The translations under genes and the position numbers were made by a program. Shown here piece after piece: positions 55,393 through 61,871 of a stretch of DNA of 64,000 nucleotides (its first letter is position 1; each line of letters opens with the position of its first letter). This DNA comes from Vulcanimicrobiota bacterium. GTDB lineage: Bacteria; Vulcanimicrobiota; Xenobia; Xenobiales; JADMJV01. The notes beneath the pieces are model-generated. The model made no database searches, was not told the origin of the DNA, and was given only the letters and a program-made list of their open reading frames with translations. Location: positions 186,001 through 250,000 of the forward strand of contig JAHBVR010000001.1 in assembly GCA_019637395.1 (NCBI GenBank), read 5' to 3'.

Positions 55393-57492
55393 CTAGAGCG
55401 GGGCGGTCTCCCTGGCACTCAGCCAGGTGTAGCGGCCATGCCGCCAATCCTCGACTCCATCCCTATAATGGCCGCTATCCCAGCGCCCGGATTGGCCCGG
55501 GAAATGGCAGGTGCGGCAATTCTCGGGTTGGCCGAGTTCGGCAATCATGCGGAAGCTCCCGATCAAACAGATCGCGCCCGGCAATTCTCGATCGCACAAG
55601 AATCCAGCCTGATTCGGGGTATCCGCATCCCCATCCAGAGGCAGCCAGCCTCCAAAAGGCAGGCGCAGGCCATGCACTCGACCCCAGTTCCAACTGCCCG
55701 GATGCCCCAATTTCTTGGAAAGACGCCGGTGGGCTTCCAAGAGGGCCTCGCGCACCCGGGGAAGTTGCTCGGGATTCTCTTCCATCCAGTGCAACACCCA
55801 CGGCTGCAACCGAGACAAGTGCCCACCCCGCTTGAGCAGCGGATGGTGGGTTTCCGGACCCAAGAAAAGACCCCGCCACTGTTCCGGCAAAGCCAGTTGA
55901 GTCAAACACAGCAAGCCGCAGGCGGCCAGCAAGGCGGCCCGGCTGTCGGAGCGCATGTTGCCGTCCCAGCGGCGCAGGTCTTCGAGCATCCAGGAATGAG
56001 GGAAATGAGTTAATTTGAGGCATAAATCGGCAAACCGGCGGGCCGGCAAACTATAAATATCCATTTGAATTTTGGCAAAGCTGCGCCAGTCATGGTGGGT
56101 CTGGGCGGCCAGCAAATGCTCGATGCGCTGAGCCCGAATGCCGCTATTGAAGTCCCAGGACAGATCCGGCCCCAGCCCGTGGTTGGCGCACACCACGAAA
56201 CCACTTTCGGGATTGGTCAGGGCGGGCCATTCCTCAAAATCCAGCAGGCCTTGCCAGCTGAACTCCTCTTTCCAGGCCGGCACCGGCACCAGTCCGGAAC
56301 CCTTACCGCGGCGCGGGATGTGCCCCACCACCTGATAGCCGATGTCCTCCATATCGGCCAGCACGTAGCACAGGCTGGGGGCCACCCAGTGGCGCATGGC
56401 CCGGCGCGCTTCCGCCAGGTCGCGAGCGAAGTTTAGCCCGAAAAGAGCGCGAAAGAATTCACCGGGCTGCTGGCCGGTCCAGGCCAGCGACAGCGAATGG
56501 CCATCGCGCACCGGCACCAACAGCGGGCCGCGCTCGGTGGCCTGGATGAGCACGCGTTTCTTGCCAAAGCCGCGCACCCCGATTTCCTCCCAGCGCTCTT
56601 GCAGGTTGCCGTCGATTTTTTCCCAGAAGAGATCCTGCACGTCGATATAGGAATTGGTGGCTCCCCAGGCCAGGCTGCGATTCTGGCCGATCACCACGCC
56701 CGGAAAACCGGCCATGGTGGCGCCCACCACATGCCCCTTGGGCCAGATCAACTCCGCTTGATACCAGCTGTCGGGAACCTTGGGAGCCAGATGCGGATCG
56801 CTACCCAGCATGGGCCGACCGCTGGCGGTCAGGCGCCCGCTCACCGCCCAGGCGTTGCTGCCCGGCCCGGCCGGGGTCAGACCGGCCGGCAGACTCTGTT
56901 GGATGAGCTCCCATTCCTCCCGTAGCTCCTGTAACCGAGCCCGGGTGGGCTGCCCGGAAACCTGAGGGTAGCCTGGTGGGGCCGTCATGGCCCCCCAACT
57001 TTCCAGCGCTTCTGGATGGCTGGCGGCCAATTGACCGCGCAGTAGCTCCTGCTCCCAGTTGGCGGCCAGTCCGAAAGCCATCATCTTCACCCAGAGCAAG
57101 CAATCCAGCGGAGTCCATTCGCTCAAGCTCATCCTCAGCAAACGCATGGCCCAGGGCCGCTCGGCACGGAAATTCACGCCGGCGCAATAGGCCTGCAGAG
57201 CCGCCAGTTCCTGGGGGCGATAGAGTTCCAGCTCGCGCCGGCACAAACCGACCAGGTCCAACTTTCGCATGAAACAGTCGGCCCGAAAAGTCAGCTTGGA
57301 AAATACTTCCGACAGGCGGCCGCTGGCCAGCCGGCGTTGCATCTCCATCTGAAAGCGGCGCTCCCGCCCATGGGCGTAACCCAGTCCCCAGCACACGTCG
57401 TCCCAGTGCCGGGCGCGGATACTGGGCACTCCACGCCCGCTCCAGCGAATGCGGACCAGGCCGTGCTGGCCGGGCAGTGATTGCTTCTTCAC
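55393..57492 (-). CDS. Penicillin-acylase-family Ntn hydrolase
   Basis: 699 residues. The family core is PGSNAWAVSGRLTASGRPMLGSDPHL; S212 after GPG would be the N-terminal nucleophile freed by self-cleavage. Further features are GATMAGFPGVVIGQNRSLAWGATNSYIDVQDLFWE and a C-terminal WNWGRVHGLRLPFG. These enzymes hydrolyse amides such as acyl-homoserine lactones or penicillins. No signal peptide is seen, unlike most periplasmic members, so a cytoplasmic role is possible. GTG 57492 overlaps the response-regulator stop (GTGA). Confidence 0.87.
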   Translation of the reverse strand: MKKQSLPGQHGLVRIRWSGRGVPSIRARHWDDVCWGLGYAHGRERRFQMEMQRRLASGRLSEVFSKLTFRADCFMRKLDLVGLCRRELELYRPQELAALQAYCAGVNFRAERPWAMRLLRMSLSEWTPLDCLLWVKMMAFGLAANWEQELLRGQLAASHPEALESWGAMTAPPGYPQVSGQPTRARLQELREEWELIQQSLPAGLTPAGPGSNAWAVSGRLTASGRPMLGSDPHLAPKVPDSWYQAELIWPKGHVVGATMAGFPGVVIGQNRSLAWGATNSYIDVQDLFWEKIDGNLQERWEEIGVRGFGKKRVLIQATERGPLLVPVRDGHSLSLAWTGQQPGEFFRALFGLNFARDLAEARRAMRHWVAPSLCYVLADMEDIGYQVVGHIPRRGKGSGLVPVPAWKEEFSWQGLLDFEEWPALTNPESGFVVCANHGLGPDLSWDFNSGIRAQRIEHLLAAQTHHDWRSFAKIQMDIYSLPARRFADLCLKLTHFPHSWMLEDLRRWDGNMRSDSRAALLAACGLLCLTQLALPEQWRGLFLGPETHHPLLKRGGHLSRLQPWVLHWMEENPEQLPRVREALLEAHRRLSKKLGHPGSWNWGRVHGLRLPFGGWLPLDGDADTPNQAGFLCDRELPGAICLIGSFRMIAELGQPENCRTCHFPGQSGRWDSGHYRDGVEDWRHGRYTWLSARETAPL

Positions 57493-58379
57493 CCCACTAA
57501 TTGTCTGAAGACCTCCTGCAGGGCGGGGGGCAAAGCAGCCGCCTTTTCGGGCTTGAGACGGGCCTCCAGCAGGAGCAATAGCTCTTCCTGGGCCACCCGG
57601 CCGGCCTGCACGATGTCCACCATGGCTTGAAAGCCATTGCGGGATACCGCCTTACCGTCGCGTGGCGGCAAGCTGGCCACGTTGCCGGTTTTTTGATAAT
57701 GGGCCATGCGCTCGTAAACCTTGCGATAAGCCACACCCATGGCCTGGAGAGCTTCCTCGGTGGGGGTTCCAGGCAGTTGCAGCCAACCTGCCTCCAACTT
57801 TTCCAACTGGTCCCAGAGCTCTAAGGAAGCCGATTTACTCAGGCCGCGGGCGCGCAAGGAAACAAAGAATGCCTGGAGGACCTTCTGTTTTTCTTGCTCC
57901 AGCAAACCGAGCATGCGCTGCACCTTTTGGGCCTTAGCCTGCTCCATCAGCTTCATAGGGCCGGCCAGCAGGCTGCGCAAGCCTGCCAGCGGAGAGAACT
58001 GGCGGGGAGGCGGATTGAGCACCCGCTCCACCACTTCCATGAGAATCGGCAGCTTGATGGGTTTGTGGACATAGTCATCCACCAGGATTTCGACGGCTCG
58101 GCGAGCCGCGTCCTCATCGGCGTAACCCGTCAGCATGACGACCTTGGCCTTAGGCTGAAACTTCTTGATTTTTTGCATGACGGCCAGGCCGTCCTGGGGG
58201 CCGCCGATGCGGATGTCCGAGACAATCAACTGGAAGGGGATGATCTTGGCCAGCTCGATGGCCGTGTCGGCGTTGTCGGCTGCCCGCGGATCATAGTTGT
58301 GAAAGCGCAGCACACCGCAGAGAGTCTCGAGCATGTTCATATCGTCCTCGAGAACGAGGACGCGGGGGGCCTCTTTCAT
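57489..58379 (-). CDS. Response regulator with uncharacterised C-terminal domain
   Basis: 296 residues: a receiver domain (1-120; acidic pair EDD 11-13, phospho-acceptor D55 in LIVSDIRIGG, Thr in MLTGY and Lys in HKPIKLP) followed by a helical C-terminal region without a recognised DNA-binding fold. Output is therefore probably protein contact. It lies between the selenoprotein candidate and the acylase, and the ATG-to-stop spacing indicates one transcript. Confidence 0.87.
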   Translation of the reverse strand: MKEAPRVLVLEDDMNMLETLCGVLRFHNYDPRAADNADTAIELAKIIPFQLIVSDIRIGGPQDGLAVMQKIKKFQPKAKVVMLTGYADEDAARRAVEILVDDYVHKPIKLPILMEVVERVLNPPPRQFSPLAGLRSLLAGPMKLMEQAKAQKVQRMLGLLEQEKQKVLQAFFVSLRARGLSKSASLELWDQLEKLEAGWLQLPGTPTEEALQAMGVAYRKVYERMAHYQKTGNVASLPPRDGKAVSRNGFQAMVDIVQAGRVAQEELLLLLEARLKPEKAAALPPALQEVFRQLVG

Positions 58380-58413
58380 AGGGCCCCTGATTCCGCACCC
58401 GATGGTCCGGAAC

Positions 58414-59295
58414 CTACCTATGGGGGTCGGTCACGGGAATCTGTGTCTGCCAGTGCACCCCCCGCTGGTGACCCTCGAAGAGATGGTCGTGAGCGTTCTT
58501 TTCGGCACCGCGATAACCGTTCAGAAGCCGCTGCAAATCGGCGGAAAGCGTCGACGAGTCGGGAGCAAGCCAGCCCAGGGGCTGGCTGTCCAGGCCAAAT
58601 TTCCCCGGGGCCAGCACCAGCAAGCCAGGCCTGGGCGTGGCCCGCTGGTCCAGACAATAAATCGCCTTTCCCAGCAGGGCCGGCTCCCAGGCCACAGCCG
58701 CCAGGCGGCTCTGCCAGTCGCGCAGCTGGGCGCCGTCCGGAGAAGTCAGAGCCACCACCGGCAGACCATCGCAGGCGGCCAGATTGACGGCCAGGCGCAG
58801 ATTGACCACGGTGGGTAGTTCGCCGCTGGACTGTCCCCGGTAGCGCTCGGAAATGCGCCCCATGGTGGTGGCCATCTGTTGCGAGTCGACAAAGGCGAAA
58901 TCGGGACTACGGCCCGAGTAGACCAGCGGCGTGCGGCCGTCGGGACTGAGCAGGGCGAAGGTGGTGTTCTCCAACTGGCCGGAGCCGCCCCGAAAGATAG
59001 AGCGCAGCATCCGAGCCTCCTCGAGGCTTTCGTAAGTGGCCAGGCGGATGCAGACAAACTTGCGCGAGGCCCGCACAACCTCGGGTCGGGACAGGAAACT
59101 CCTGTCCATAGCTTGCTTACCGGGTCACCAGATGCCGGAAACGTTGTGACAATGAGGCGCGGCCGCGATCAGCAAAATCGGCCGGCCGGTGGCGCGCGCC
59201 TGGCGCAGGCCCATCTCCCAGGTAGCATACCACTGGATTTTCTCCTGGGCCGGCACAGTGAGGGTGAGCAAAAGAAAAAGCAGCAGGATTCTCAT
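58414..59295 (-). CDS. Candidate selenoprotein: exported thioredoxin-like protein with in-frame UGA
   Basis: From ATG 59295 the frame gives a signal peptide (MRILLLFLLLTLTVPAQ), then WEMGLRQARATGRPILLIAAAPHC and a TGA at 59125-59127 (codon 57). The same frame continues without shift as PGKQAMDRSFLSRPEVVRASRKFVCIRL, a thioredoxin-like helix/strand that ordinary callers would start at ATG 59109. Reading TGA as Sec gives 293 residues with GIW-U57-PGKQAMD and C49 eight positions before. A stem-loop at 59089-59107 fits a bacterial SECIS. A redox role outside the cytoplasm is inferred. The later part (PDGRTPLVYSGRSPDF) resembles thioredoxin-like proteins; residues 150-293 are unassigned. sel genes are not in the window. 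Confidence 0.78.
59089..59107 (-). promoter_or_regulatory. Candidate bacterial SECIS element
   Basis: In the mRNA, GGACAGG and CCTGTCC form a perfect 7-bp stem with loop AGTTT. It begins 17 nt after the in-frame TGA, so the loop is 24 nt downstream, with a G among its first two bases. This lies within the range described for bacterial SECIS elements, which are read inside the coding sequence by SelB. Confidence 0.72.
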
Positions 59296-59309
59296 CGGTT
59301 GAGCTTAGT

Positions 59310-60536
59310 TCACAATTGTGGAGACATGATGGACTGGCGCAGGGCCTGGGCGAACTCGCGGGCGGTGGCGAAACGCAGGCGCTTTTCGCGGCGCATGCCG
59401 CGCTGAATAGCCAGCCACAAATCAACGGACACGTCCAAAGGCTCAGGCTCATGATTGGCCAGCGCCATGATCAATTCCCCAAGATTCTTAGCCGGGAAAG
59501 GATGCTCGCCCTGCAGGCATTCGTAAAGCATCACGCTGACCGCGAACAAGTCGCTCTGCGCGTCCACATGTCCCAGGTCGGGATTGAAAGCCTCCGGGGC
59601 CATATAGTGGGGCGTGCCGTAAAGGCTGTCCCCCTTCATCGGATCAACCTCGGTGCGCGCCAGTCCGAAATCCATCACTTTGGTCTGGCCGTCGAGAGTG
59701 ACCATCACGTTGTGCGGCTTCAGATCGCGATGAACCACCCCTTCCAGGTGAATGGCCTCGAGCGCTTCCAGCAACTGGATAAAGAGCTTCACGATGGTGG
59801 GAATATCGGCGATCACCTTGAGCGCGTCCGAGAGTAATTTCCCCTCGATCAACTCCATGGCGATGAAACGGCAGGGCTGCAATCCAATTTCATAAATCTT
59901 GACCACTCCCGGATGATCCACTCGCGCCAAGGCCCGCGCTTCCGTGATGAAACGCTGCAAGGCCTGACCCGGTTTGGGTTCATCGGTGATCAACTTGAGG
60001 GCCACCTGGCGCAACAAGCGCGTATCCTGGGCGCGGAAAACCTCACCCATGCCGCCTTTGCCCAGCGAGCCTTCCAGCCAATAATGGGCTACCCGCTCGC
60101 CGGTCTTATAAGACCCCGGCAGTTCCACCGGCAACTCTTCTTCCGGATTGAGGATGACCACCTTGGGTCGCAGACGCAAAAGGTGGCGGATCTTGGCAAA
60201 GAGCAGCTCGAACTGGACGGGCTTGGTGAAAAAGTCATTGGCTCCGCCGTCGATGGCCCGTACCATGGCCTGGACGTCGTCGCTGGAAGAGACCATCAGA
60301 ATGGGCAGTTCGACGGGAGTAAAACGGCGGCGCAGGATTTCGAGCACTTCCAGGCCAGACATATCCGGCATATTCAAATCTAAGATGACCAGCTCGATCG
60401 GATGAAGCGCTACCGCCTCCAGGGTGGAATGTCCGCACTCAGCCACCACCACTTCGTGGCCTTCGCGAATCAGGCGGCGATGCATCAGTTCTCGGCTGAT
60501 CAGGTTGTCATCAACGACCAATAACATCCCGTTCAT
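59310..60536 (-). CDS. Response-regulator receiver fused to a Ser/Thr protein kinase (second copy)
   Basis: 408 residues with the same layout as the protein at 13389-14618: receiver (phospho-acceptor D53 in VILDLNMPDMSG, KP loop TKPVQFE) and kinase (LGKGGMGEVF, VALKL, VVHRDLKPHNVMV, VMDFGLA, YGTPHYMAPE). Shared stretches such as RFITEARALARVDHPGVVKIYEIG show that the two are paralogues. ATG 60536 has AAAAGGG upstream; ATG 60554 is an alternative. It is followed 14 bp later by the selenoprotein candidate. Confidence 0.9.
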   Translation of the reverse strand: MNGMLLVVDDNLISRELMHRRLIREGHEVVVAECGHSTLEAVALHPIELVILDLNMPDMSGLEVLEILRRRFTPVELPILMVSSSDDVQAMVRAIDGGANDFFTKPVQFELLFAKIRHLLRLRPKVVILNPEEELPVELPGSYKTGERVAHYWLEGSLGKGGMGEVFRAQDTRLLRQVALKLITDEPKPGQALQRFITEARALARVDHPGVVKIYEIGLQPCRFIAMELIEGKLLSDALKVIADIPTIVKLFIQLLEALEAIHLEGVVHRDLKPHNVMVTLDGQTKVMDFGLARTEVDPMKGDSLYGTPHYMAPEAFNPDLGHVDAQSDLFAVSVMLYECLQGEHPFPAKNLGELIMALANHEPEPLDVSVDLWLAIQRGMRREKRLRFATAREFAQALRQSIMSPQL

Positions 60537-60611
60537 CGCAGCCCTTTTTTGCATGGCTAAAGACCATTCCTGTGGAAGGTAGATCAAACTACTAGAGGGA
60601 AATTCTCGGCT

Positions 60612-61871
60612 GTGAACCGGGAGACGTTTCAACTCATAGGCTATGGCGCGCTGATCCTCATTCTGTTCGCGCTGGTCATCGTGATTTTGGGCAATCTCCT
60701 GGGATTGGCGGTTCTGGTTGCGATCGGCTGTGGTCTCGGACTCTTATCCGAATCCATTTACCCCTCTCCTTTAAGCCACGGCCGGCTTTCGGCCACCGCG
60801 CTGGGACTGACCGGCGCCATTGTGGGCAACGTTATTTTCGGCCAATGGGGCCCGAACCTGGCCCATGTATACTTGATTCCGTCCCTGCTGGGAGCGCTCA
60901 TCGTGAGCGCTCTGTTGCGGGCCAAAGTGCGCTATGACCGGTTGCGGCGCATCGAAGATTACACTGCGGCCGCTGGAGAAGAGCCGCTGGCCATGTCCCT
61001 GGTCGAGCAATATCGCCTGATTCGATTCGTAGGTTCCGGTGGCTTCGCCAAAGTTTTTCAAGGAGTTCCTGACCGCACCCTGCGCGAAAGCGAGTCGGTA
61101 GCCGTCAAGGTATTTTCAGAAAATGCGCTGGAACAGGAAGATTTCGTCGCTCGCATCGGGCGTGAGGTCGCCCTCTGCCAGAAACTCGACCATCCGAATA
61201 TCGTGCGCATTCACAAATCCGACGAACAGAACAAACTTCGTTACATTATTATGGAATTCGTAAACGGCGAGACGTTGCGCACTCGCATGAAGCAGGGCCG
61301 CCTGGAGATACCCGAGGCTGTCAGCCTGCTGATTGAATTAGCCGGTGCCCTGGCCCATGCCCACTCCAAGGGAGTAATTCACCGCGACGTGAAGCCCGAT
61401 AACATCATCTTGACGCCCCACGGCTGCAAAATCATGGATTTCGGCCTGGCCCGCCAATCCGGCACCTCCGATCTGACTCAGACCGGCTCGGCCATTGGAA
61501 CCCCCCACTATATGCCGCCCGAACAAATTCTGGGCGAAAAGCAATTGGACGGACGCTGTGACCAGTACGCGTTGGGCGCCATGGGCTTCGAAATGCTGAC
61601 CGGCGAGAAGTTGTTTGACGGCGATGAAGCCATCCACGTGGTCATCAAGCACGTCCAGGAAGAACCCCGCAATCCGCGCGAAATCCGCCCGCAGATTTCG
61701 GAAGCGCTGGCCAACTGCATCTTGAAAATGATCTCCAAAGACCGTGACCATCGCTATCCCGACATGGACACCGTAGTCGCCGAACTCAGAGCCCTCCAAC
61801 CCGAAGCCATCGCCCTGGCCCGCCCCATCGAGCCCTCACCACAGCAAAGTGGCGATGGAGTGGGCCGGTAG
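60612..61871 (+). CDS. Membrane-anchored Ser/Thr protein kinase with YeaQ-like N-terminus
   Basis: 419 residues. Residues 1-100 hold three to four hydrophobic helices with small-residue patterns (LIGYGALILILFALVIVILGNLLGLAVLVAIGCGLGLLSES) resembling the GlsB/YeaQ/YmgE transglycosylase-associated family. The kinase follows (130-400): VGSGGFAKVF, VAVKVF, GVIHRDVKPDNII, IMDFGLA and GTPHYMPPE. It probably senses envelope state. It is divergent from the receiver-kinase hybrid. The start is GTG 60612; the 3' end overlaps the GH30 gene by 36 bp. Confidence 0.88.
   Translation: MNRETFQLIGYGALILILFALVIVILGNLLGLAVLVAIGCGLGLLSESIYPSPLSHGRLSATALGLTGAIVGNVIFGQWGPNLAHVYLIPSLLGALIVSALLRAKVRYDRLRRIEDYTAAAGEEPLAMSLVEQYRLIRFVGSGGFAKVFQGVPDRTLRESESVAVKVFSENALEQEDFVARIGREVALCQKLDHPNIVRIHKSDEQNKLRYIIMEFVNGETLRTRMKQGRLEIPEAVSLLIELAGALAHAHSKGVIHRDVKPDNIILTPHGCKIMDFGLARQSGTSDLTQTGSAIGTPHYMPPEQILGEKQLDGRCDQYALGAMGFEMLTGEKLFDGDEAIHVVIKHVQEEPRNPREIRPQISEALANCILKMISKDRDHRYPDMDTVVAELRALQPEAIALARPIEPSPQQSGDGVGR

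Follow-up and report, generated by a model that had tools for sequence, protein, structure and literature searches.

Organization of the locus

The window, that is the whole stretch of 64,000 nt that was analysed, carries on its minus strand a gene lying between two genes for regulatory proteins (Table 1). Its reading frame runs from an ATG (59293-59295) to a TAG (58414-58416) and is interrupted in frame only once, by a TGA at codon 57. The positions given for the ATG, the codon-57 TGA and the gene end in an earlier reading of the DNA (hereafter the sequence-only reading) were exact. This reading had also held that standard annotation would pick only the portion starting at ATG 59109, and the listing of open reading frames under translation table 11 indeed contained only this 231-aa piece. 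Ordinary annotation thus splits the protein in two, with loss of the putative export signal and of the active site. The N-terminus is signal-like in all five members of the family described below, and the protein is probably exported.

The kinase gene was found directly upstream in four of the five genomes; genome G005 shares no neighbours with the others. A linkage to the kinase was considered and set aside, the neighbours not being conserved in G005. In G001, a genome of the same genus (contig C14, locus L084), a 0.9-kb segment containing the gene is cleanly absent between the kinase and response regulator genes. Since the flanks are intact, the gene was gained or lost as a unit.

Table 1. 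Positions of the features in the window, and of the selenocysteine genes on their contigs (C34 and C2).
Feature	Position	Strand	Basis or remark
Selenoprotein gene (very probable)	58414..59295	minus	293 codons, UGA at codon 57, stop TAG; read-through translation, and TGA kept at this codon by the orthologues of four further genomes
Signal peptide MRILLLFLLLTLTVPA, putative	59248..59295	minus	Sequence inspection; hydrophobic N-terminus in all five members; putative export
Thioredoxin-like domain 1, carrying W-U-P-G-K	58846..59238	minus	Residues 21-94 match Pfam Thioredoxin_7 with E 1e-7
Cys49 codon, in the inserted (H/Q)CH..SG loop	59149..59151	minus	Invariant; candidate partner of Sec57
UGA codon 57, probably read as selenocysteine	59125..59127	minus	In the alignment, opposite the first Cys of CxxC
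ATG 59109, start for ordinary annotation	59107..59109	minus	Not conserved: ACC in G005
SECIS-type hairpin, stem GGACAGG/CCUGUCC, loop AGUUU	59089..59107	minus	Fits the bSECIS constraints of PMC13188914
Thioredoxin-like domain 2, residues 156-268, no CxxC	58492..58830	minus	AlphaFold2 mean pLDDT 87, pTM 0.82
Upstream gene, response regulator and Ser/Thr kinase	59310..60632	minus	14 nt before the ATG; ordinary TGA stop
Downstream gene, response regulator	57489..58379	minus	Ordinary TGA stop
Segment missing from G001	58395..59314	minus	Replaced there by about 21 nt; identity of the flanks 83-84%
selD	C34:238535-239461		Same strand as selA and selB; adjacent cluster
selA	C34:237170-238225		Same strand as selD and selB; adjacent cluster
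selB	C34:235257-237119		Same strand as selD and selA; adjacent cluster
tRNA-Sec, anticodon UCA	C2:179548-179635		Apart from the selD-selA-selB cluster

Conservation among relatives

Homologues were searched in 15 genomes of the order, and full-length homologues were found in four further genomes. Identity to the window protein was 85% in G004, 79% in G002, about 62-63% in G003 and 51% in G005. The latter belongs to a different genus, and the family spans two genera and five genomes of uncultured bacteria. The sequence L002 (Candidatus Eremiobacterota bacterium), the G004 match and L006 are one contig, which was counted once. One contig scan of genomes matched L002 only; its patterns had Cys, not UGA, at codon 57. 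One of the relatives is a metagenome-assembled genome and others may be too.

Each of the four homologues contains exactly one internal in-frame stop, a TGA, and the codon alignment places it in a single column in all five members. As the TGA is kept in every orthologue, a sequencing error, which the sequence-only reading had named as a possible refutation, is excluded. The motif context is PHCHNVSGIW-U-PGKQAMDRSFLS in four members and PQCHGISGIW-U-PGKQDTDRSYLS in G005. Changes in the codon alignment fall mostly at third positions on both flanks of the TGA, and protein identity among the five members is about the same upstream as downstream of it; the third-position bias points to purifying selection in both parts.

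No further orthologue came from a profile search of 149 genomes of the phylum. The distant matches that it returned were DUF255-like or other thioredoxin-like proteins and were rejected as orthologues. No Cys-containing orthologue was found in the 15 genomes of the order or by the phylum profile search, and no relative was found on viral contigs.

Hairpin downstream of the UGA

The sequence-only reading had pointed to the need for a SECIS hairpin directly downstream of the UGA, and a SECIS-type hairpin was located there. Its 7-bp stem starts 17 nt past the UGA and its loop (AGUUU or AGUUA, depending on the member) lies 24 nt from it. The bSECIS model calls for an apical loop of 3-9 nt, a stem of 4-16 bp, a G at loop position 1 or 2, a distance of 16-37 nt from the UGA and a minimum free energy (MFE) <= -7.5 kcal/mol (PMC13188914). 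The hairpin satisfies this model in all members; in the window sequence its energy is -11.9 kcal/mol (8-bp, 3-nt-loop form). It is nearly invariant, and its stem is 100% paired in all members, compared with 18-57% when slid. In G005 the outer G-C pair has become C-G, a compensatory change that combines a Met to Thr replacement in one arm of the stem with a synonymous Ser change (UCC to UCG) in the opposite arm. This covariation concerns one pair among four distinct sequences and is not significant (120/500 shuffles). With only four distinct sequences, covariation statistics were rejected as proof.

Compared with shuffled sequences, the hairpin is not strongly unusual (z of -0.5 in a 64-nt stretch and of -1.5 to -3.9 in 42 nt), and an equally stable hairpin follows 1.4% of the TGA triplets within the window. 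Hairpin strength alone was therefore rejected as proof of a selenoprotein. Codons for the same residue were unchanged in 77/104 comparisons at codons +1 to +13 vs 721/1622 elsewhere, an unusual degree of conservation; these pairwise counts are not independent, and the p-value obtained from them is too small. A combined scan for a TGA, a hairpin with an xGU loop and a frame open on both sides was run over 2.08 Mb of the source genome. It returned about 30 sites, among which only the present gene was judged protein-like on both sides.

Domains, redox motif and cysteines

Domain 1 matches Thioredoxin_7 (PF13899) with 32.4 bits (curated cut-off 27), and this match, over residues 21-94, spans the TGA. 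The sequence-only reading had proposed an alignment with thioredoxin-like proteins to see whether a Cys faces codon 57. It does: in DUF255-like proteins the position is taken by the first Cys of CxxC, and in AGR2 by the Cys of the CPHS motif, which is in the same register (weak, E 0.4). The DUF255-like stretch SAVWCHWCHVMDETTYSDP aligns without gap to SGIWUPGKQAMDRSFLSRP, which indicates that Sec57 stands for the first Cys of CxxC and that Lys60 replaces the second. The motif would thus be W-U-P-G-K, with selenocysteine at the predicted nucleophile position. The CxxC/UxxC redox pair of Thioredoxin_7 is absent, all five members having UxxK.

An insert of about 8 residues ahead of the motif (HCH/QCH) contains Cys49, which the sequence-only reading had named as a possible partner. 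Cys49, Cys82 and Cys175 are invariant in the five members. The whole-protein model has a pLDDT of 67, with residues 46-63 below 50, so that the Cys49 loop is poorly modelled. Given this loop and the other two invariant cysteines, Cys49 is a possible but rather uncertain partner of Sec57. The whole-protein model matches structures of the protein disulfide isomerase (PDI) family, with AGR2/3 and ERp44 among the best folds. Almost all Foldseek matches of domain 2 are thioredoxin folds, the best E value being only 6e-3.

Selenocysteine machinery and probable decoding of codon 57

The sequence-only reading had suggested searching the genome for the sel genes, and selA, selB, selD and a tRNA-Sec(UCA) were all found (Table 1). 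No homologue of the present gene was found in G007-G010, genomes of the order without selA. In G005, two tRNA-Sec matches exceeded the cut-off (C119:9251-9340 and C223:1600-1687, with 73.0 and 53.4 bits); they may correspond to a second selC or to a contaminant contig.

The conserved TGA, the SECIS-type hairpin, the selenocysteine machinery and the thioredoxin-like domain together argue that the gene almost certainly encodes a selenoprotein, with UGA codon 57 read as selenocysteine. The proposal of the sequence-only reading, selenocysteine at an in-frame UGA of a thioredoxin-like protein, is thereby supported by the TGA in five genomes, the hairpin, the sel genes and the Thioredoxin_7 match. 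Three other readings of the TGA were weighed. If it were a true stop, the 231-aa frame from ATG 59109 would be a separate protein and the 56 codons upstream a leader or a remnant. This agrees with the table 11 annotation and is nevertheless very unlikely: the domain 1 match crosses the TGA, conservation at the protein level is about as high upstream of the TGA as downstream, and the ACC found in G005 in place of ATG 59109 argues against re-initiation. A pseudogene or sequencing error, in which a Cys or Trp codon was recently damaged to TGA, would take only a single point change. It is refuted by conservation: the codon is identical in five genomes from two genera, no further stop interrupts the frame, and both flanks are under purifying selection. 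The probability of this reading is negligible. Low-level read-through of UGA occurs in bacteria, and the codon could be read as an amino acid other than selenocysteine, either under an altered code or by near-cognate read-through that inserts Trp or Cys. However, TGA ends both flanking genes as an ordinary stop and also terminates the G002 orthologue, and there is a full selenocysteine machinery together with a SECIS-type hairpin, which makes this reading highly improbable as well.

A further alternative accepts the selenoprotein and concerns its role. Sec57 could be non-catalytic and, with Lys60 and Cys49, bind metal or selenium or take part in disulfide-linked assembly. The replacement of the second Cys of CxxC by Lys60, the invariant HCH/QCH insert that could bind metal, and AGR2 as a related one-cysteine fold are in its favour. 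On the other hand, selenocysteine typically serves redox chemistry (PMC13188914) and Sec57 occupies the nucleophile position of thioredoxin; a non-catalytic role was judged unlikely. A role as redox enzyme is probable.

Relation to known families

A 2026 catalogue has entries for 119 families or subfamilies of prokaryotic selenoproteins (PMC13188914, Table 1), and the present family is not one of them. No UPGK motif was found in this table, and its sole UxxK entry is SelD. No NCBIfam model matched the family near its cut-off, and none of the papers in the library that was searched combined Eremiobacterota with selenocysteine or UPGK with selenoprotein. The family was rated as a new one within a known kind, the thioredoxin-fold selenoproteins, to which it adds a thioredoxin-type member with an unusual WUPGK centre.

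The nearest NCBIfam model is the Trx7/PDZ (seleno)protein NF041199, also a Thioredoxin_7-based selenoprotein, whose N-terminal part is weakly matched by all five members (best E 0.003); the window protein, at 14.5 bits, stayed far below the cut-off of 300. In NF041199 the selenocysteine lies in CxxU (PMC13188914), whereas the present family has Sec first and Lys fourth, and a second thioredoxin-like domain instead of the PDZ domain. With Thioredoxin_7 (PF13899) and Thioredox_DsbH/DUF255 (PF03190), the register from W-C/U to S-x-P-x-V is free of gaps. The proteins of these two families that were examined have CxxC with Cys, in contrast to the U-P-G-K and the insert with invariant Cys49 of the present family. 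The thioredoxin, thiol:disulfide interchange and SaoT selenoproteins (UxxC) share the thioredoxin fold and the first position of Sec in the motif (PMC13188914, Table 1), but retain the resolving Cys. The one-cysteine PDI-family proteins AGR2/AGR3 and ERp44 are alike in fold; they are eukaryotic and have Cys, not Sec. This likeness is one of fold and mode of working and does not imply membership.

Proposed mechanism

SelB and tRNA-Sec would decode the codon-57 UGA as selenocysteine, guided by the downstream hairpin. The protein would be an exported thiol/selenol oxidoreductase of a-b type, most likely acting outside the cytoplasm, in which Sec57 substitutes for the first, nucleophilic Cys of CxxC. 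Sec57 would attack a client disulfide or peroxide, and either Cys49, in the inserted loop nearby, or an external thiol may then resolve the resulting bond. Domain 2, which has no redox motif, probably binds the client, like the b-type domains of protein disulfide isomerases.

Formate dehydrogenases and a further selenoprotein candidate

No full Sec-type formate dehydrogenase was found over the cut-off in the five genomes with the present gene. G001 carries formate dehydrogenase alpha genes that contain a single TGA in frame (L078, C35:49073-52114, plus strand, with the TGA context RV-U-HGPTV; and C33:3758-6634), and G006 has a weaker one (L079, C177). Within the large-genome group, these two are the genomes lacking the present gene. 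G001 is 7% contaminated, and the origin of its formate dehydrogenase genes is uncertain. These observations, five carriers of the gene without a formate dehydrogenase match and the gene-lacking, contaminated G001 with one, bear on what maintains the selenocysteine machinery. We tentatively suggest, as a rather doubtful possibility, a bacterial PDI-like (a-b type) selenoprotein family whose Sec functions without a CxxC partner, for which no Cys version was found, and which helps a lineage without Sec-type formate dehydrogenase to retain selenocysteine decoding.

A second signal-peptide, Thioredoxin_7-like frame was observed in G005 (L210, C101, minus strand); counted on the reverse complement, its in-frame TGA lies at position 1269. 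Its motif, ...GENPG-U-AGCQAF..., is of the UxxC type, and the sequence CAAC-GGUCC-GUUG lies 24 nt past the TGA. This frame probably encodes a further selenoprotein of G005, and its in-frame TGA at U-A-G-C was counted in favour of the selenoprotein reading of the present gene.
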